Shown in pieces: positions 43,374 through 63,267 of a stretch of DNA of 64,000 nucleotides. Location of the stretch: NCBI GenBank assembly GCA_914767715.1, contig OU612066.1, positions 9,801,001-9,865,000 on the forward strand, written 5' to 3'. The notes under the pieces are model-generated. The model saw only the letters and a program-made list of their open reading frames with translations, searched no databases and had not been told where the DNA came from. The DNA comes from Membranipora membranacea. Lineage: Eukaryota > Bryozoa > Gymnolaemata > Cheilostomatida > Membraniporidae. Every line of letters begins with the position of its first letter. Positions within the stretch are counted from its first letter, which is position 1. Position numbers and translations under genes: made by a program.

Positions 43374-46300
43374 CTAATTTGGGAAATGATCTGATTCCTT
43401 GCTAGGGTAATCATATGAAAGGGGTCTGAAAGCAGGTAGAAGAAAAACAACGGTAATGATGATCATAGCTATGACAAAAACCAGAAAGAAAAATCTGTCA
43501 TAAACTTTTCCGACGGCTCTCCACTCTTCCTTCATAAATTCACTGGTGGTGGTTTCAATCCTTCGGCTCTCATACTCGCTCAAACACTCTATAATCTGCT
43601 GTAAATGATTGTCTATGACTTGAAGTACTTTGGTGTTTGCAGTGTTTGAGTCACCACGAGACAGCTCAAATTTAGGGCAATCGCTGTCAGGGGTCAAAGG
43701 TGACCTTCCATTGCTCTTAGGCAGAGTGTCATGAATTGAACTTCCGCCATTTAGCAGTTTCAGTTTGACTGTCGAAGAGGTTGTGCTTAGTCGGTTTGAC
43801 CATGTGTTGCTTCCTGAGCGTTGAGCTTTGTTAGGGAGGTGAATACCTGTTCCATGAGTGTACTTGAGTTGTTTGAGGAAAACTGCCCGGGCAAGGAAAT
43901 CAAATGTGAATCTCCTGAGTGCGTAGGGGATGGCAACTTCTCCTCGGTGATGAAGTTGACTGATGAATATGGTGCACATGATTGAAAAAGTTACAACACC
44001 TGTGACGACTGATATATACAAACCTACAAAGAAAAATGCAACACAATCTATACAGGCCTATTTTGACTCCCTTCCATAATCTTCAAGAGTTGTGCTCTTG
44101 TATAAAAAGGGGAAACAACTCTATGTTCAGCATGAGGGCCGAGAGAAGCAAGGGTAAATACTTCAAAAAGAAACGAAATTGAAAGCAGTGATCATGAGAT
44201 GTTCATTGGAATGGCAAAAGCCAAATAATTCAGGGTACAGTCATAATCATTTATGACTTACTGATGATGGGTACAGAATCTGACCGGCGTGGTATGCTCT
44301 CAGCCACGATCAGCTGAAACACAGTGAAGCTGAGAAGCAGTGTGATGCCCAGTGATATCTTCTCTCCTGAATCTGGAGGTACGCAGAACGTGAACGTGGC
44401 CAGCATGGAGAGAATCACACAAGGCATGATGATGTTCACTATGTAGTAGAGACTCTTCCTCTCTATCCAGATATGGAAGTAGAGAGAGGGATAGGAGACA
44501 TTTCCGCAGCACTCATATACCACCTCAGTCCTGGTAAAATAAAACAACATCAAAAACTGTCAGCACAAACTACAAGATCATTTTAATTTTTTTATTCAGT
44601 GACTGCGATATGTCAAATTTTATCATGTTTTATCAGAGCATCCCTTATAAAAAATTTTATGTCTCAGCGAACGAGGCAAATACTTACAAAACATACTTAC
44701 ATACGAAATAATATATATAATATATATAATATCTAATAATAATATTGTCTGCATATCGGTGGTTAATAAAGTTCATAATATATAATTGTTTACAGACTGA
44801 AAAGCTTAACCAAAAATGAGTTGCCGAAAGTAATAAGAAGTTAAAACGAACTCAACCGACCTGTTGACTTTTGTTTCATAGATTGCCCACTCAGCGCTCC
44901 TCCGGTAACTGTCCATCACTATGAGATTTGATGAGTTTATTAAATTCATCTCCCCAATGTTATATGCCCAGTTTGTCAAGTGAAGATAACATCTGCAATG
45001 AATGATTTAAAAAGCATAAACATATAATTTTACACTGTAAAATTGATATGTTGGCGGACATAAACAAATTACCTCTCGGACACCGATATAAATACTTATT
45101 TATATGTATATGTTTACAAGACAAGACGCGACAGCGTTATACAATTTCATCGTCTTGTCCTTCAATTCAGGCCTTTACTGTCCACACAAATACCTTGTAT
45201 TATTTTTTTATCATATTGTCTGTGCATGCTGGTCTCATATGTTACACCAGTTTATAACCTGATTAACAGAAGAAGGTTGATGATAGTTCTGGTGGTAGTA
45301 GTTGTTGACAGTGTATGCAGCTCCGCTTCTGGCCAATGTGTTGGCTCTGATTGGGTGGAGTAAAATCCCCAAACAATCGAAGCCTAGGCTACTCCCTTAT
45401 TTAATTATCTGAGAAGAGAGATATGAGCATCCCAGAAAAGAATAGTTCTCTTACTTACGTTTGCCTGTCAAATGGAAAATATCTGATATCCAGTTCACAG
45501 GTTGTGTAGTAAGTCCCTCCAGGTACCCATAAGACAGAGCCATCACTGTACACCACACATCGGAACTCATTCTTTATCATAGATGTGTGATAAATCGATG
45601 CACTGCAAAACAAAACTTTAGTAAAGCAAAGATAAAACACTGGTGTTCTATTGCGTACTGGCCTAGCCTTGTCACGCCGCTACTTTTGTTTAGCCGTGTG
45701 ACAAGGCTAGTACTTGCCTAGGTAGCTTTCTTTACTTTTGGATTTAAAAGGGGAAAAAATATCAATTGATAACCTTTGGCCCTTATTCAGAGACACTTAA
45801 GTCAAAGATTGAAGGTGAACGACGAATAAAACACATTGTCTACATTATAAAAAGCTATGAAATGCTAGTTCAGTTTATGTTTCATAATATTCTGAGAAAG
45901 GAAGCAGTATAAGCCTGAAGCTGAAATTGGGGAATATTTTGTATTAATAGATTTAACAGTTATAGTAGTGTAGCATGTGAAGGGTGCGCCCGTAAACAAA
46001 GCTGATACACCATAAAATATGTCCTTGGACAAGTGGAGAAGTTTGGATTTATTACTCCTGCCTGTGGAAATAAATTGACAAAACCCATAGTAACAGCAAT
46101 TCTCATGCTATGTATTGCCTAGTATCTTGAACAATCTACACGGTTACACTAATAGTAGTAACTAAATCTGATATATGTTATGGGTTTATTAGGTGTATTT
46201 TTGATTTTATACCCACTGTTCACTACCAGGATTATTGCTGAAAGCATATGAAAAATAATGAAGGTTTACAGTAATACAAATGCAATGCATGAGCAGTTGG

Positions 46301-55092: not shown

Positions 55093-55101
55093 AAAAAGAG
55101 C
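55093..55101. repeat. 9-bp target-site duplication of the MULE element, left copy (AAAAAGAGC)
   Basis: The identical 9-mer at 63259-63267 lies immediately outside the other terminal repeat. Nine bases is the usual duplication length for Mutator-like and FB elements. Confidence 0.8.
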
Positions 55102-55106
55102 GAATC

Positions 55107-55530
55107 CGCGACAACTTGGCCCGAGCCAAACTTGGCCCGAGCCAAACTTGGCCCGAGACAAACTTGGCCCGAGCCAAACTTGGCCCGAGCAAAACTTGGC
55201 CCGAGACAAACTTGGCCCGAGCCAAACTTGGCCCGAGCCAAACTTGGCTCGAGCCAAACTTGGCCCGAGACAAACTTGGCCCGAGCCAAACTTGGCCCGA
55301 GCCAAACTTGGCCCGAGCCAAACTTGGCCCGAGCCAAACTTGGCCCGAGCCAAACTTGGCCCGAGACAAACTTGGCCCCAAATATAAAACTTGGCCCGAT
55401 GCAATGAAACTTGGCCCCAATTCGTAAAGCTTGGCCCCAAATAGTAAAACTTGGCCCATGCAATGAAACTTGGCCCCAATTAGTAAAACTTGGCCTCAAG
55501 TACTGAAACTTGGCCCCAATTAGTAAAACG
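55107..55530 (-). repeat. Left inverted tandem-repeat arm of the MULE element
   Basis: About 16 copies of a 16-bp unit (acttggcccgagccaa, some with gagaca instead of gagcca) occupy 55110-55378. About seven 18-20-bp units follow (aacttggccccaattagtaa, aacttggcccgatgcaatga, aacttggccccaaatataaa). The unit variants are the reverse complements of those in the right arm. Open frames translating to PSQTWPEPNLARAKLG on several frames and strands are repeat artefacts. Confidence 0.9.
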
Positions 55531-55902
55531 TGGAGGTATTTAATTTGTTATTTTGTGTATCACAGATAAAAAAGCTCTTTGATTGTCACGGGCTCAGTCA
55601 AGGGAACAGTATGGGTAGACCTGTCTGATGAGCAAGTCAGTTTCTAAGACATGATATTGTTTTATGTAAATCTTTCAATTTGTCCTGTTTTATTCTTTTT
55701 TCCAATATTGTCGATTGCACCAGAATCTCTTTCATAGAAAAAGAAAAAGATGCAGTGCAACCATCGGAGGAGGCCAGACTTGACGATGATAGGTAAAAAT
55801 GTTAAGAAACATCATATTCTAAATGTCTGTAACATATATTATAATCGCTGACAAGAAGATTCAACAATGATCCAGCATCAGGATCTAGCTTTAGTAATAC
55901 TG

Positions 55903-56236
55903 TAATACCTCATTTATAAGGCACCGGCCTTATAAGTGAAGCACCTCCCTTGGAAAAATTAAAAATGCTACAGTTATGAGGCACCCAACAGCTACAAGGC
56001 ACCCCTTTGGAAAAAAAAACTGACCTCGATCGGATTCAAACCCGCAACATTGTGTTCACAAGGTAGGTGCTCTGTCTACTGAGCTATGTGGCTTTCCTTT
56101 TCAAACCACGGTTTTGGTCTAAGTCAAATATAAAAATGCTTCAAATGATAGCCCATCTATAATATAGGCGCATATTATGCTCCACTCTCTAAGGCGCCTT
56201 CATCTATAAGGCACGGGCCTTATAGGTGAGGTATAG
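55903..56236. mobile_element. TIR-bearing element with an internal tRNA-like module, inside the MULE
   Basis: Ends are inverted: taatacctcatttataaggc at the left, and at the right ataaggcacgggccttatag followed by gtgaggta, pairing over about 40 bases. Internally the minus strand reads TAGCTCAGTAGACAGAGCACC (A-box-like) and GCGGGTTTGAATCCG (B box). It is related to 37405-37640. Confidence 0.65.
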
Positions 56237-56432
56237 CGGTAATATTGTCACTATTCTCAGGTCAGAGCAGTTGCTCACAGGCAAAACACAAAAGTGTTGC
56301 AGAATCTTCATACTTTGTCAGAGTGGAAAATTAATCATCCTTATCATAGCTTCATTAATACAAAAATTGATAAAACGACTAAATCCTATGCACATACATA
56401 CTGCATAACATATATCATAATGCACATTTCAG

Positions 56433-56574
56433 GCAATGTATAGATACAGTTATCGATGGTCCGAGGTTTGCGCTAGTGAGAGCAGCGACCCAGCGCAAAG
56501 GGAATTGTTTAATCGATCGACATCTAGGACATCGCTATGTTAAGGAGAACAGGGATTGTGAGGTGCTTCAGTGA
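56433..56574 (+). pseudogene. Possible FLYWCH-like N-terminal exon of the MULE transposase
   Basis: After the acceptor tttcag, the frame reads R-QCIDTVIDGPRFALVR, then TQRKGNCLIDRHLGHRYVKE and NRDCEVLQ before TGA. The KGN-LID-GHRYVKENRD order resembles the first half of FLYWCH zinc fingers found in animal MULE transposases. The second half (WxC...CxxR) is missing, so the assignment is tentative. An even weaker candidate exon lies at 55725-55791. Confidence 0.35.
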
Positions 56575-59340
56575 CATCTAACTACTGAACATAAACATAT
56601 TTTCCTGATTTTGGAATAAGCTGCCAATAAAACGCAACTGACAAATTTAATAATAAAACCATGAATTGTACTGAAATTGTCTGTTGGCTTGACATGACTA
56701 GATATACTATCCTGATCTCTTGATAGGAAGTGGTAGTTTGATGGCGTTGTGCGAGGTATGGCAAGCCAACAAAGTGTAAAGCAATTGTGTAAGGGCCGAA
56801 TGGAGCATTCAATATAAGTAGAGGGGATCACAATCATCCTGCCTATAGGAAACCACTAGAATGTGCTCGCATCGCTAGATAGGTATGGTAGTTGACTCTA
56901 TAGGCAAACTATAAAGCTTGTCTGCTCTCTGACATTAATAATTTATGAATGTTACAGATTACTTGCATTGAAACGAATGTGTTTATCTGATAGTCTGATG
57001 ATTTTTGTTTGTTTATTGATTCTACCGGGCAGAAAAGTTAGTAAATGAGGATACGTTTGCCCCGACATCAATAATTGTTGATAGGGCTGTTAAGAAGCTT
57101 TATGAAGAAACTGCAGAAATACGGAACTTTATAATACCGATGGTGTATCTTGCTATGCAAATCAAACATCCCGAGGGCAGGAAGCACCAAAGTTTGAAAT
57201 TACAATAATTGAAGGAATCATTGCCACCGAACCTGAGTCTAGGAATTCAAGTGGTTCACTATTGTCTGTAGAGGAGAATCACTACATTGTATGGGATGCG
57301 TGGGCCTCGGTAATTTAGAAAGTCATCCTGTATCAACAAACAGTATCTACCGATGCAGCAGGCCAAATATTGAATTTGCATGTTTGCAGGTCTTCTTCCT
57401 TTTGTCACCTCTTTTCATAATATTGTTGTATTTTCAATATATTATTTTCTTTCTAGAGCATGACTAATTTCAATTGTAGGGGTATAGATGGAACCTTCAA
57501 GACAGTTGTCAAACCTTTCCAACAACTTCTGACAATAAACTGCTTTGTTAGAACAGCCGATAGGGAAGAGCAACTACCCTCCGTATATGTCCTTATGTCT
57601 TCAAAGCAGCAGGCAGACTATTTGATGGTTAGATATCCTGATTAATTAGCGACAGGTTACCCACTGATCAGACTATCTCGTTTAAAATCACGCCATTATT
57701 AATCACAAACAAGTTAATATGTTAAAGTTGAACTAAAATTATTAAGAAATTCCTCCTGTGCAGGTCGTCAAGTGGTTACCTGATCCTATTCTTAACTACT
57801 TTCCTCGGATTTGGCAATTGAAGAGCCTCACTTTAATGACCATGCTAATTATTCTCTATAGCAGAATTGATCGCTTGCGTGTAAGACACTTTGGTCTGTG
57901 GCTGAATTTCAGATTTAATGTAGAGGAAGTAGGATTTTAAGCAATTGTTGACATTTTTTTTCCTTCGATTAACCTCTCCAAACTAGTAGCTTGGTATCAA
58001 ATGATTCTTGACATCTTCTAATATAATAACTATACTATTCCACCGTATTTATTTGAGACTGTGTGTTTAAATTCGGGTTGGGTGTATTTTAAAGAATGCC
58101 TGACTGCTTTCCAATTATATTTTCCATTGTGCCTTTTTATAGATGTTCAATGAGTTAAAGAAAATCGCCAATCTCAATGTTCAAACCATCATCATCGATT
58201 TTGAGAAAGGTACACAATTAAATTGTTCGTGAAAGAATATCAAAACACACCTGACTGAGCTGTAAAATTTGAAATACAAACTGTAAATTTTAATTCACAA
58301 GATGTCAATAATGAAGCTTCGTTTTGGGGTTTGTTAATTGAGGGCAACTTCTTCATTTTTTCTTGGTACATATACGCTTTTAATGTCAATCTACAATCAT
58401 CTTTATGAATGTTTTTCACGCAGTGACAGAACAAATAAAGTGGTAGTGTTTTGCAATGTTGTTCTTGTTCTGTGTTATATTTCCTTGACCAATCCTCCAC
58501 TTGTTAAAACAAAAGACATTTATTGCCTTGTGCACAGTTGTATCATAAAAAATCATCTCATTTGTCTGTTTAGGGATCTGGGCTGTTTTTTCATCAGCGT
58601 TTCAAGGAGTACATATAGTAGGATGTAACTTCCATTTCCGGAAATGCATCTGGCGCAGGGTGCAAAAGCTTGGTAAGAAGTCAACGTTATGCATAAATAA
58701 CTATGACTATGAGTAATAATAATATTATGATTATAAATATGCAATAAACCGATATATTAATAATATAATAAATATCAAATTTTAACTTCTTATGAAGTTA
58801 TTTAGTCATGATTGAGAAAGCACAAAAGTTTCTCTAAAAGGTTAGTAACCACGAAACAAGAAAAACTTTATACTAGCATAACTTCTCACATCAGCTCAAC
58901 CTCAAAAACTTGAGAGTGCATGGTTAATGTTACAGGTCTCGCATCAGGCTATCGCCATCACCACAAAACTCGTCGTGTTTGTGGGTTTCTGTGGGGGCTC
59001 TCCTACCTACCTGTCCACTTGATTCAGGAAGCTTATCGCTATGTGGTCGCGGAGTACAACGAGCCTCACTTCAGGCAGTTGTTTGAGTATTTTGAGATTA
59101 CATGGCTCAATGGAAGATTTGAGCCAAAATTCTGGAGTGTATCGACAGGCGATAAGGAAAAATAACTCTCTGGAAGGTAACTGACATTCAATTTCACAAT
59201 TCGTTTAGGGTTGTTCATATTTGAACCCTTGTAAAGCAATCTTCACTTGATCAGAAAGGTTCATCACTCAGTATGCAATGAGCAACAACCAACATTTTGT
59301 GTCTGTGTTACAAAAATCTATGCTTTAAATCATAAAGTTA

Positions 59341-59555
59341 AAGCTATAGTAGCGCCTTTTGGTATATGACATATTGCTTAGGTATGACGATGAAAATTTA
59401 TTTGAATGAAGCTCATCGGACAACTGAATTCATAGGCTATCTAAAATGTTGCCACAAATCCTATTGGAGGTATCTGGTTAATCAAGAGCCAGTGCTCTTG
59501 ATTAACCAGATACCTCCAATATGATACCAAATATTGGGAGGCGTTACTATAGCTT
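59341..59555. mobile_element. Hairpin MITE in the last transposase intron
   Basis: The outer ends aagctatagtagcgcc and its near reverse complement enclose a perfect central hairpin at 59463-59520 (27-bp arms, 4-nt loop). The host intron is otherwise short, so this is probably a later insertion. Confidence 0.65.
59463..59520. repeat. Perfect 27-bp-arm hairpin
   Basis: attggaggtatctggttaat plus caagagc, loop cagt, then the exact reverse complement with no mismatches. It is the youngest-looking inverted repeat in the window. Confidence 0.85.
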
Positions 59556-59953
59556 GAAAGTAAATAATATTCACAGGCTTCTTTAAAACAGGAGCTATGT
59601 GTGCATATTGAATAATATTGTTTCCGTTTTCAGGCTGGCATAACAAGTTTAATCGCCAGGTGAGGTTTGTTAAGCCCCCAACATTTATGTTGATTGAAGA
59701 GTTACGGAAGGAGTGATCTTCTGTAGAACTGGAGCTGAAAGAGATTTCAGCAGGCTTTAGCAGTCTAACTAAAAAATTAAAATGTGAAAGACTCAACAGG
59801 TTTTGGGTAAAAGCCTGGGATCGACTCGATGAAGACAATATTTATTACAGGCAAATAATAAATATGGCATACCATATTCTGCCTGCCGTTGAGGACGACT
59901 CTCGCTCCGAAGATGTGAATGAACAATTCACAGCTTCTGAGCAGGAGCTGTAG

Positions 59954-60814
59954 ATCAACCTATAATTATATCATACACACGCATTGTAAATAGTTCATGG
60001 CATTGATAGACTTAGAATCTTACTGCCAATTATGTTTCATTTAGTTTGCTGCATCATCATTATAAATTCTCTGATTTTCATCTCATTTCTTATCACAGAA
60101 ATTTGTATTTTATCTCATATTTTTTTTCATCACTTTACATGGTGGTACCTATGTATTAATTATCTCTTAGGAGACTGTGAAACTAAGTTTTGTAAATAGA
60201 TTACAATCTAACTGCCCATACTGTTTCATTTATATTTTTGCAACGACCATTGTAAATTGGCTTATTGTTACCTCATTTCTAATCTCAGAAGAAATTCTAT
60301 TTTGTCTCTCAATAGTTTTCATCTTAGTACATTAGTAGTATTATCACTTGGAAGCCAAATTTTTGTGTTGCATAAAACTCAAAGAACTATTGGTTTTAGC
60401 GCAGGTTTAGATATTACATAAATACTCTAGCTGCTTACTCTATTTAATATTTTCCATCAAACTTTATAAACATCTCATTTTCAATCACACATTCAATCTA
60501 AAAAAATTCATTATGTCTCTATAATGGAAACAATTTTTAATTTTGCAAGAACGGATTATCATTTTTGCCTGCATACAGTGGCTTTTGTGTTCTTCTGTAG
60601 TTTTATATTCAATAATAAGGTAACTATTACTACACACGCATAATTCTCTTTCATTTTTTTAAATCGATGCTTCTGATGATTAATTATATTAAATAAAAGT
60701 TTATTGCAGCTACACACACGTTTATTTCATAATCTAAACGCATGACAAAAAAAAATAGCATATGTGGTAACGACCAGATAAGGTAATTGACTTTGGTATT
60801 TTACTACTTTTACT
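59954..60814. other. 3' noncoding part of the MULE element
   Basis: AT-rich, with two diverged copies of a block of about 180 bp (tctcatttct-atcacagaa-ttttat at about 60085 and again near 60270; tttcatttagtttgctgcat and tttcatttatatttttgcaa). No gene recognised. Confidence 0.4.
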
Positions 60815-61229
60815 ATGTGGGGCCAAGTTTCAGTATTTGGGGCCAAGTTTTACTAATTGGGGCCAAGCTTTACTAATTTGGGCCAAGTTTCAGTACTTGG
60901 GGCCAAGTTTTACTAATTGGGGCCAAGTTTCATTGCATTGGGCCAAGTTTTATATTTGGGGCCAAGATTTACTAATTGGGGCCAAGTTTCAGTACATGGG
61001 GCCAAGTTTTATATTTGGGGCCAAGTTTTACTAATTGGGGCCAAGTTTCAGTACTTGGGGCCAAGTTTTACTAATTGGGGCCAAGCTTTACTAATTGGGG
61101 CCAAGTTTCAGTACTTGGGGCCAAGTTTTACTAATTGGGGCCAAGTTTCACTAATGGGGGCCAAGTTTCAGTACTTGGGGCCAAGTTTTACTAATTGGGG
61201 CCAAGTTTCATTGCATCAGGCCAAGTTTT
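60815..61229 (+). repeat. Right inverted tandem-repeat arm, inner segment
   Basis: About 20 copies of units of about 20 bp: ggggccaagttttactaatt, ggggccaagtttcagtactt, gggccaagtttcattgcatc and gggccaagttttatatttg. They are in the opposite orientation to the left arm. The ORFs reading GPSFTNWGQVSLHWAKFY are artefacts. Confidence 0.9.
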
Positions 61230-62242
61230 TGTGGTACGGGAAATCTCGAAAGGGTGGAACACCTGGCCGTTACCTGGCTAGGGTTTGGTTCTCAAGCTAA
61301 CGGTATCTAGCTAAACAAACTCACCATGAATGAGCCGAGAGAGGATAACTCCTTGGTAGAGAATTCCTGGATAGCTATCTTCAGCCTAGAGAGGGTCGTA
61401 CTGGTGGCAAAGCCAACCTAGCAGAGCTGTTTACTGAGGGTCGTACTGGTGGCAAAGCCAACCTAGCAGAGCTGTTTACTGAGGGTCGTACTGGTGGCAA
61501 AGCCAACCCAGCAGAGCTGTTTCCTGAGGGTCGTACTGGTGGCAAAGCCAACCTAGCAGAGCTGTTTACTGAGGGTCGTACTGGTGGCAAAGCCAACCTA
61601 GCAGAGCTGTTTACTGAGGGTCGTACTGGTGGCAAAGCCAACCCAGCAGAGCTGGTGTCTCGAGTAGCTTACAAGCGGAGCTTATAGCGGGTGCATTTAG
61701 ATCTGATAGTATACGTTGCGAAGCGGGATGTACCCTGACCTTGCCCTCTGAGCAGATTGAGCGGGACGCACCCGGAACCTGGACTGTGTAGCCTTAGCTA
61801 TATGAGGTGTATTGACTATATATTCAGACCGGAGACTGAAACGCACTTGCTGGGAGTAATATTGGAAATGCGATAGACTGTCTGTGATAATACTGTAAGA
61901 CGGTGCAGCCGTCTTAATATTGAGTTCCATGTCGATAATTGCTAAGATTAAATGTGTATAGAATATATATTTATGATGTCCGTGAGATTGCTTCTGCAAT
62001 AAATATATATATGTTGAAGCCGTCTACATGATATTGATAATATAATATGTTCCAGTTTAAATCAGGGTAGAAAACCCTTTTCACATCAGAATGACTCTGT
62101 TTGACTTTGAATATTCTATATTTAGAATATTCAAAATTAGTAGGCATGATACATCCATTATAATAGCAGACAGCAAGAGTTGTCCCCTCAATAATGCGTG
62201 TTACTGGGCTCGCTACATTAATTATAGCCTCAAAACTACCTC
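61230..62242. mobile_element. 1-kb insertion splitting the right repeat arm
   Basis: Non-repeat sequence interrupts the array between two copies of AGTTTT (61224-61229 and 62243-62248), a possible 6-bp duplication. I see no terminal inverted repeats and no transposase. It contains the 45-bp minisatellite. Its nature is unresolved. Confidence 0.45.
61391..61654. repeat. 45-bp minisatellite, about six copies
   Basis: The unit begins gagggtcgtactggtggcaa and is 45 bp, so it keeps every frame open. On the plus strand it would read EGRTGGKANLAELFT per unit. There is no start codon in that frame, so coding is unproven. Copies differ at one or two sites (acctag/acccag, tttact/tttcct). Confidence 0.9.
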
Positions 62243-63253
62243 AGTTTTATATTTGGGGCCAAGATTTACTAATTGGGGCCAAGTTTCAGTACATGGGGCC
62301 AAGTTTTATATTTGGGGCCAAGTTTCACTAATTGAGGCCAAGTTTCAGTACTTGGGGCCAAGTTTTACTAATTGGGGCCAAGTTTCATTGCATCGGGCCA
62401 AGTTTTATATTTGGGGCCAAGATTTACTAATTGGGGCCAAGTTTCAGTACGTGGGGCCAAGTTTTATATTTGGGGCCAAGTTTCACTAATTGGGACCAAG
62501 TTTCAGTACTTGGGGCCAAGTTTTACTAATTGGGGCCAAGTTTCATTGCATTGGGCCAAGTTTTACTAATTGGGGCCAAGCTTTACAAATTGGGGCCAAG
62601 TTTTATATTTGGGGCCAAGTTTTACTAATTGGGGCCAAGCATTACTAATTGGGGCCAAGTTCCATTGCATCGGGCCAAGTTTTATATTTGGGGCCAAGAT
62701 TCACTAATACTAATTGGGGCCAAGTTTCAGTACATGGGGCCAAGTTTCAGTACTTGGGGCCAAGTTTTACTAATTGGGGCCAAGTTCCATTGCATCGGGC
62801 CAAGTTTTATATTTGGGGCCAAGATTTACTAATTGGGGCCAAGTTTCAGTACATGGGGCCAAGTTTTACTAATTGGGGCCAAGTTTTACTAATTGGGGCC
62901 AAGTTTCATTGCATTGGGCCAAGTTTTACTAATTGGGGCCAAGTTTCACTAATTGGGGCCAAGTTTCAGTACTTGGGGCCAAGTTTTACTAATTGGGGCC
63001 AAGTTCCATTGCATCGGGCCAAGTTTTATATTTGGGGCCAAGATTTACTAATTGGGGCCAAGTTTCAGTACATGGGGCCAAGTTTTATATTTGGGGCCAA
63101 GTTTTACTAATTTGGGCCAAGTTCCAGTACTTGTGGCCAAGTTTTACTAATTGGGGCCAAGTTTTACTAATTTGCAATTTAAATATTTGGGGCCAAGTTT
63201 GGCTCGGGCCAAGTTTGGCTCGGGCCAAGTTTGGCTCGGGCCAAGTTGTCGCG
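62243..63253 (+). repeat. Right inverted tandem-repeat arm, outer segment
   Basis: About 48 units of 18-20 bp in a higher-order order (TACTAATT, CAGTACTT, TACTAATT, CATTGCATC, TATATTT recurring). It ends in three 16-bp units (ggctcgggccaagttt) and the terminal ggccaagttgtcgcg. The outer 16-bp block is much shorter than the about 16 copies in the left arm. Confidence 0.9.
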
Positions 63254-63258
63254 CTTCC

Positions 63259-63267
63259 AAAAAGAGC
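63259..63267. repeat. 9-bp target-site duplication of the MULE element, right copy (AAAAAGAGC)
   Basis: Identical to 55093-55101. Confidence 0.8.

Follow-up and report, generated by a model that had tools for sequence, protein, structure and literature searches.

A foldback-type Mutator-like transposon family with tandem-unit arms in the genome of the bryozoan Membranipora membranacea

The transposon copy and its parts

The window, a stretch of 64,000 nucleotides of Membranipora membranacea DNA, contains a single transposon copy at positions 55102-63258, lying between two 9-bp duplications of the sequence AAAAAGAGC. Its features, together with two insertions nested inside it, are as follows.

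55093-55101, no strand: left target-site duplication, 9 bp, AAAAAGAGC
55102-55106, plus: cap GAATC, adjoining the 5' side of the transposase gene; identical cap in other copies
55107-55119, plus: 13-bp shared end CGCGACAACTTGG
55113-55378, plus: left arm, outer block of 16-bp units, the commonest being CTTGGCCCGAGCCAAA (TRF)
55368-55540, plus: left arm, inner block of seven 19/20-bp units (TRF)
55898-56241, no strand: small inverted-repeat insertion inside the MULE, with TA-flanked ends and an interior that is tRNA-like by eye
56440-56562, plus: exon-like piece E1, first part of the FLYWCH finger
56742-56861, plus: exon-like piece E2, second part of the FLYWCH finger; in-frame TAA at 56790-56792
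57029-57190, plus: exon-like piece E3
57469-57627, plus: exon-like piece E4, DGTF motif of the MULE domain (first catalytic D)
58143-58208, plus: exon-like piece E5, IDFE motif (second catalytic D)
58573-58674, plus: exon-like piece E6, GCNFHF motif
58938-59162, plus: exon-like piece E7, apparent frame change before NNSLE
59633-59950, plus: exon-like piece E8, from GWHNKF to the C terminus; in-frame TGA at 59714-59716
60808-61229, minus: right arm, gene-proximal part of the inner block, 19/20-bp units (TRF)
61230-62243, plus: solo LTR, 1,014 bp, a later insertion foreign to the MULE, with its own 5-bp duplication
62244-63172, minus: right arm, part of the inner block past the LTR, 19/20-bp units (TRF)
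63190-63247, minus: right arm, outer block of 16-bp units (TRF)
63241-63253, minus: 13-bp shared end CGCGACAACTTGG, inverted
63254-63258, minus: cap GGAAG (CTTCC on the plus strand); identical cap in other copies
63259-63267, no strand: right target-site duplication, 9 bp, AAAAAGAGC

The original prediction described an 8.2-kb transposon with identical 9-bp flanks and shared ends. The flanks are as predicted and the 13-mer stands inverted at both termini, but the outermost bases are unequal: the five bases separating the duplication from the 13-mer read GAATC on the left and GGAAG on the right, differing at three positions. Nor are the 8.2 kb wholly native, about 1 kb being the later LTR insertion.

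The arm arrays were detected with TRF. Both arms of this copy have 16-bp units outside and 19/20-bp units inside, numbering 16 and 7 on the left and 3 and 65, plus two odd-length units, on the right. A total of 72 copies of the core AAACTTGGCCC were counted in the window, 20 on the plus strand (left arm) and 52 on the minus strand (right arm), with none in the rest of the 64 kb; the chance level in 100 shuffles was 0.04 on average and 1 at most. The predicted inverted arrays of 16-bp and 20-bp units are thus borne out by TRF and the strand counts of the core, the inner units being 19 or 20 bp long, and the arms show the inverted short tandem repeats in variable number that mark foldback elements. 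The right arm is one array divided by the solo LTR, whose duplication GTTTT lies at 61225-61229 and 62244-62248. The small insertion at 55898-56241 is spanned by the alignments of all eight other transposase-bearing copies, and a tRNA scan returned no tRNA. Exact array patterns gave no matches in viral contigs or in bacterial and archaeal genomes.

Between the arms lies the predicted MULE transposase. In a conceptual peptide read across the gene breaks, the MULE domain PF10551 scored 37.1 bits against a Pfam cut-off of 27.6, and upstream of it a FLYWCH finger (PF04500), absent from the first description, scored 29.6 bits against 23.6. The gene thus encodes the DDE transposase domain of the Mutator superfamily and the N-terminal FLYWCH finger plus MULE domain characteristic of the Phantom clade. 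The DGTF, DFE and NN-EGW residues, which include the D/D/E motif, are invariant between the window transposase and its relatives P0001 and P0002. The window gene is broken by the in-frame TAA, the in-frame TGA and what looks like a frame change in the last part of E7. Transposase searches yielded four relatives (P0001-P0004), too few and too distant to support a tree, and no sequence with the name Phantom, Muta1 or Tm1-A was among them. None of 100 candidate stretches from viral contigs was confirmed as a relative, and solved structures gave no match.

Copies in the genome and origin of the element

The 13-bp end has 120 exact copies in 339 Mb (62 forward and 58 reverse) versus 3 for the reversed control (2 and 1). 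The end-pair analysis covered 100 of these 120 ends, and among the matches listed 28 convergent end pairs were recognized, with an exact 8- or 9-bp duplication in 19, a duplication with one mismatch in nine bases in one and none in eight. Counted as independent insertions, 19 carry duplications, 8 bp long in ten and 9 bp in nine (one mismatched), within the 8-10 bp typical of the Mutator superfamily. When flanks were cross-paired, only 2 of 756 combinations matched, both joining locus L009 to its segmental duplicate L010. Every one of the 20 duplication-bearing pairs combines one GAATC cap with one GGAAG cap (GTAAG in L022), and none of the four GAATC/GAATC pairs has a duplication; these four probably consist of unrelated ends. 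The eight pairs without duplication are L020, L023, L024, L028, L029, L030, L034 and L035, of which L024, L030, L034 and L035 lack it despite their two unlike caps; in L034 and L035, duplicates of each other, the second cap is GGGAG. Nor was a duplication present at the divergent pair L039 or at the inner L028 end.

Transposase exons lie between the ends in 9 of the 28 pairs. Eight loci have another middle in common, seven of them with a duplication, and further loci are little more than arms, the shortest arms-only copies measuring 90-100 bp. The same arms also carry unrelated middles, and arms that mobilise copies with an unrelated middle or none are a hallmark of foldback elements. Two element-free paralogous sites contain the duplicated bases once: that of insertion L012 within L005 (87% identity overall) and that of L011 within L003 (84% identity, with a 32-base gap nearby). 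A further empty site for L012, in L003, is imperfect, the final two positions of the 8-bp stretch differing from those found exactly in L005. The original prediction had proposed a search for other copies with the same ends and transposase, 9-bp duplications and empty sites, and all of these were found, the duplications being 8 or 9 bp long and the empty sites belonging to two other insertions.

A near-identical copy elsewhere, L032, departs from the window copy at 12 of 5,260 bases in the interior, and the GAATC arms of the two differ at 3 of 439 bases. The two have different duplications (9 bp in the window copy, 8 bp in L032), and the family has moved recently. Both in-frame stops are common to the two copies, which makes it probable that each was mobilised in trans. 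Unit number in one outer block varies between them, from 3 in the window copy to 11 in L032.

These observations are best explained by a family of cut-and-paste DNA transposons that belongs to the Mutator (MULE) superfamily and has arms of foldback type, an account to which, with its proposed mechanism, we assign a probability of about 0.92. In this mechanism, the FLYWCH finger would most likely bind the arms at their repeated AAACTTGGCCC units, and the two element ends would then be paired. Cutting would take place at the GAATC and GGAAG caps, followed by insertion into a staggered 8- or 9-bp cut, with a preference for targets in which the duplicated stretch has AC as its last two bases, next to the GAATC cap. 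Because its own transposase gene is broken, the window copy would probably have depended on a transposase supplied in trans.

The degenerate transposase and the satellite-like arrays might instead suggest a MULE relic caught by accident between two independent satellite arrays, with the 9-bp match due to chance. The probability of this is vanishingly small: a transposase stands between matching ends in the nine pairs mentioned, duplications accompany 20 of the 28 pairs (one mismatched), and two sites are known without the element, so that the other copies and empty sites rule the accident out. The duplication, arms and transposase accordingly form one transposon, as first proposed, and arms and transposase belong together. 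It could also be supposed that the arms spread chiefly by recombination or segmental amplification, duplications marking only the founding insertions. Segmental copies of single insertions do exist (L009/L010, L034/L035 and L044/L045/L106-L112), the outer block differs between the window copy and L032, and the middle of L036 is inverted relative to its caps. Such a spread is nevertheless highly improbable as the main process and is limited to a minor role, because the 19 duplications of 8 or 9 bp (one mismatched) are distinct, even between two copies with 99.8% internal identity.

Target bias beside the GAATC cap

In a first set of 19 insertions, 12 have AC as the final bases of the duplication, next to the GAATC cap (P ~2e-11, the motif having been spotted in this set before being tested there), and none of the 19 duplications begins with GT beside the GGAAG-side cap. 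A second set shows a weaker bias, with AC beside the GAATC cap in 7 of 24 (P ~2e-4) and at GGAAG-type ends in 3 of 16 (P ~0.05); on the pooled GGAAG side, AC occurs in 3 of 35 (P ~0.3). The background for AC is 5%. The family seems to pick its landing sites in a definite orientation.

AC at the GAATC-side end of 12 of 19 duplications would also be expected if these bases were a fixed part of the element. This has very little likelihood and was rejected on the far duplication copies and element-free sites: AC recurs where the duplication is repeated at the opposite cap, and the element-free paralogues L005 (for L012) and L003 (for L011) have it, though L003 at the L012 site does not; moreover, 7 of 19 insertions lack it. 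A sampling effect, or a bias without polarity, is more plausible though still unlikely, considering the prior sighting of the motif, the weaker second set and the 3 of 16 GGAAG-type ends; against it stand the first-set probability with 12 versus 0 of 19 at the two sides, the second-set probability and the pooled GGAAG side. Tentatively, and at slightly less than even odds, the transposase may distinguish its ends and read an asymmetric target, the GAATC end being joined beside AC and the GGAAG end not; in such a directional reading the target sequence would therefore orient insertions. If true, this would be a MULE in which unequal ends are tied to directional target choice, a link that could account for the different motifs kept at the two ends of Tm1-like elements. 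The apparently polarised bias makes the role of the unequal ends open to testing.

Comparison with known foldback MULEs

The bryozoan family appears to be undescribed, its kind being already known from mosquitoes, nematodes and flies. In FB and FB-NOF of Drosophila, short tandem repeats make up the long arms, and the middle may or may not hold a MULE-type gene; sea urchin foldback (TU) elements have long inverted arms; the bryozoan family resembles the former in its short-repeat arms and its middles with or without a MULE-type gene, and the latter as an invertebrate foldback with long inverted arms. The original prediction had placed the element in a separate invertebrate lineage of FB-NOF-like architecture. 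A bryozoan family with tandem-unit arms around a MULE gene is indeed present, but its layout resembles Tm1 and Muta/Phantom. One nicotinic receptor-like gene indicates that the host is a bryozoan. A true relationship to FB-NOF, with a transposase sister to Drosophila NOF and not to Phantom or Muta, would account for the shared architecture of long short-repeat arms around a MULE-type gene, as NOF is generally known; it is improbable, considering that the FLYWCH plus MULE layout, 8/9-bp duplications, unequal caps and heterogeneous middles match the descriptions of Tm1 and Muta1. The FLYWCH domain and the unequal caps point to Tm1/Phantom-type elements, and Tm1 and Muta1/Phantom are the closest published relatives as judged by described layout.

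In Tm1 of Meloidogyne (PMC3169594), a multi-exon FLYWCH plus MULE transposase is combined with arms of one to nine tandem units of about 14 bp, short motifs beyond the inverted repeat that differ between the two ends (A1 and A2), duplications of 8-10 bp and unrelated middles, and the authors of that study found no clear target consensus. The bryozoan family shares the several FLYWCH plus MULE exons, variable tandem-unit arms, unequal end motifs, duplications and unrelated middles. It differs in host phylum, in unit sequence, in having two unit classes (16-bp mostly outside, 19/20-bp inside), in its longer arms of up to dozens of units and in its target bias. The Tm1 arm motifs A1, A2, B, C and D do not recur in it, the unit and cap sequences differing by eye from the published consensus motifs (PMC3169594), so that the two have just their layout in common.

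For Muta1 and other Aedes MULEs, PMC5225508 and PMC6446971 describe 8- or 9-bp duplications, subterminal tandem repeats and nonautonomous copies with heterogeneous middles, and all three traits recur here. Muta elements group with Phantom (PMC6446971). Muta1 is unlike the bryozoan family in its 145-bp arms of nine repeats and its reinsertion without apparent sequence preference (PMC5225508, PMC6446971); the bryozoan arms reach more than 1 kb and AC is favoured. Tetris of Drosophila virilis, as presented in PMC4079207, which mentions FB/FB-NOF and classes sea urchin TU elements among foldbacks, likewise has foldback arms with internal tandem repeats and duplications of similar length (8-10 bp), and was assigned to Mutator. 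Its units measure about 220 bp and also form free satellite arrays, and no transposase was found, unlike the 16-bp and 19/20-bp units and transposase gene of the bryozoan family.

A bryozoan family is thereby added to the Phantom/Muta/Tm1-like foldback MULEs. Its near-identical copies with differing arm lengths, its arms-only copies and one internally inverted copy form a natural series that gives a direct view of how arrays grow, how copies are mobilised in trans and how arms recombine.

Architecture of the window copy

The transposon occupies positions 55102 to 63258 of the window, and re-examination bore out all positions that the original prediction had assigned to its 9-bp flanks, shared 13-bp ends and repeat arrays.

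Features of the window copy
Left cap: GAATC, five bases between duplication and 13-bp end
Right cap: GGAAG, five bases at the opposite end
55898-56241: small inverted-repeat element, ends like CTGTAATACCTCATTTATAAGGC, TA flanks
61230-62243: nested solo LTR of 1,014 bp inside the right arm, with the 5-bp duplication GTTTT
61391-61654: 45-bp tandem repeat within the solo LTR, reading EGRTGGKANLAELFT

The two caps differ at three of five positions. Inward from the cap, CGCGACAACTTGG merges into 16-bp units, which are followed by 19/20-bp units with the same core and a variable tail. The left arm contains 16 outer and 7 inner units. The outer units of the right arm number 3, and with the nested LTR excluded this arm also contains 65 19/20-bp units and two of odd length. 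In other copies, too, the 16-bp units usually but not invariably lie outermost; the arm-following rule halted early in several of these copies. Of the 72 occurrences of the AAACTTGGCCC core in the window, 20 are plus-strand copies in the left arm and 52 are minus-strand copies in the right arm, leaving none for the rest of the window; no more than one turned up in any of 100 dinucleotide shuffles (mean 0.04).

Exon-like pieces on the plus strand encode a FLYWCH finger (29.6 bits, cut-off 23.6) and then a MULE domain (37.1 bits, cut-off 27.6), confirming the transposase predicted between the arms. The DGTF, DFE and NN-EGW positions are invariant with two relatives from the protein search, P0001 (30% identity over 83%) and P0002, named Adineta steineri (26% identity over 61%). 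In-frame stops at two places and an apparent shift of frame disrupt the gene in the window copy; transposase pieces without these stops are present in other copies. A near-perfect palindrome of about 56 bases (59465-59520) was seen in the last intron-like stretch of the gene, and several other copies display inverted self-matches of 82-91% at the matching place.

The right-arm sequences on either side of the 1,014-bp insert join into a normal repeat unit. For this insert, the genome search scored 40 of 143 candidates and found at least 41 matches, and since those listed include, as read by eye, six same-strand pairs 7.3-7.5 kb apart, it is the solo LTR of an LTR retrotransposon family; no match to it was found in the fetched loci L009-L048. 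The small inverted-repeat element is spanned by alignments of all eight other transposase copies and is therefore considered an old passenger. Its interior appears tRNA-like by eye. Elsewhere in the window, a nicotinic receptor-like gene (43377-44559, minus strand) shares 65% identity over 95% with a Watersipora subatra protein, the best named of 19 matches, and 30-42% with named matches from other groups. This single gene points to a bryozoan host.

Ends, target duplications and empty sites in the genome

A search of the source assembly (339,339,785 bases, 18 contigs), as proposed with the original prediction, recovered 120 exact copies of the 13-bp end (62 forward and 58 reverse) versus three of the reversed control (2 and 1). 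The pair analysis covered 100 of the 120 ends, each fetched or within the window, and yielded 28 convergent pairs including the window copy, 26 of them read whole and two (L014/L015 and L016/L017) as separate ends. The predicted duplication of the target recurs in other copies: it is exact, at 8 or 9 bp outside the caps, in 19 of the 28 pairs (window included) and has one mismatch in 9 in L026. It is absent in eight pairs (L020, L023, L024, L028, L029, L030, L034 and L035), nor was one found for L039, a divergent pair, or at L028's inner end. Because L010 is a segmental copy of L009, the independent insertions number 19 with L026 counted, ten with 8 bp and nine with 9 bp. Among 756 cross-pairings of flanks, the sole matches were L009 with L010, both ways. 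Each of the 20 duplication-bearing pairs combines one GAATC cap with one GGAAG-type cap (one GTAAG), and the four GAATC/GAATC pairs all lack a duplication. On contig G000:C7, nine end copies at about 0.16-2.3 Mb (L044, L045, L106-L112) possess a nearly identical flank, which suggests amplification of a transposon copy within a larger duplicated segment.

Empty sites, also called for by the original prediction, were found for two other insertions, L011 and L012, by joining the flanks with a single duplication copy and aligning them to other loci. The joined flanks of L012 match both L003 and L005 (87%) through the junction; L005 has a single, exact copy of the eight duplicated bases, and L003 differs at the last two. 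Those of L011 align likewise to L003 (84%), the gaps lying away from the junction, and here again the eight bases occur once. Both host sites fall within one repeated host segment, L003-L006 (G000:C1, 37.13 and 37.16 Mb), which may represent a different mobile element or a preferred target. One mini-copy was also observed in this segment.

When the duplications are written with the GAATC cap following, AC forms the final two bases in 12 of 19 (binomial P about 2e-11 against a background of 5.4%), A being last but one in 16 and C last in 13. GT, the equivalent for the other cap, is the start of none of the 19 (Fisher P about 4e-5). A second set comprised distinct flanks that were unpaired or without duplication, 24 GAATC and 16 GGAAG-type (59 rows, 46 distinct; repeats counted once, six other-cap flanks excluded). 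AC precedes the cap in 7/24 GAATC flanks (P about 2e-4) and 3/16 GGAAG-type flanks (P about 0.05), and in 3/35 on the GGAAG side pooled over both sets (P about 0.3). The motif had been noticed in the first set before testing, the bias is weaker in the second, and some flanks may be non-independent, so that a larger sample is needed. The respective authors describe no apparent sequence preference for Muta1 (PMC5225508) and no clear target consensus for Tm1 (PMC3169594).

Internal sequences, polarity and recent movement

Transposase exons are present in nine of the 28 pairs (the window, L023, L026, L027, L030, part in L031, L032, L036 and L037), and a protein search of the genome found at least 122 exon matches (95 of 345 candidates scored), falling into about 42 loci when grouped by eye. 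A second middle, about 4.2 kb in length, is present whole or in part in L011, L012, L013, L018, L019, L022, L028 and L033; these copies are mostly 95-98% identical to each other (lowest among long matches about 92%), and none of the eight matches the window middle. In L012, L018 and L033 it contains reading frames, one weakly reverse transcriptase-like (PF00078, E 2.9e-5, 24.3 bits, below the cut-off of 29.6). This resemblance suggests a captured retrotransposon fragment that spread together with the arms. L020, L025 and L029 have a third middle in common, and L009 (100 bp), L010 (90 bp), L038 (202 bp), L024 and L034/L035 are nearly arms alone.

The GAATC cap lies 5' of the gene in seven copies (the window, L026, L027, L030, L031, L032 and L037), and L023 is uninformative because both its caps are GAATC. 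In L036 this cap lies 3' of the gene with the exact 9-bp duplication intact, which looks like an inversion between the arms. A middle inverted relative to the caps is as expected from recombination of inverted arms. The second-middle copies are mutually consistent in polarity in 7/7 informative cases.

The window copy and L032, on separate contigs and with different duplications, show 12 differences over 5,260 internal bases and have both stops in common; the simplest reading is that transposase from another copy moved both. The GAATC arms of the two contain 23 units each and differ at 3/439 bases. The GGAAG arms start with 3 16-bp units in the window copy versus 11 in L032, indicating that the outer block can change length quickly; further in, the unit order is equal over 26 comparable units except for one unit variant.

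Putative mechanism and known relatives

Excision and reinsertion of Muta1 with 8- or 9-bp duplications were demonstrated in yeast (PMC5225508), and by analogy the transposase of this family would cut and paste the element. In Galileo, the DNA-binding domain binds sites within the long-arm repeats (PMC3688188); by the same kind of comparison, binding of the AAACTTGGCCC units by the FLYWCH finger is probable. Neither this family nor any such element from a bryozoan was described among the top matches in open-licence literature, and on its architecture the element is classed as a new foldback MULE family of the Phantom/Muta/Tm1-like type. Tm1 has the same layout of an unequal outer motif, tandem units, a FLYWCH and MULE gene and 8-10-bp duplications (PMC3169594), and the Aedes Muta families and Phantom are close to it in layout (PMC5225508, PMC6446971), so that the kind of element is already known.
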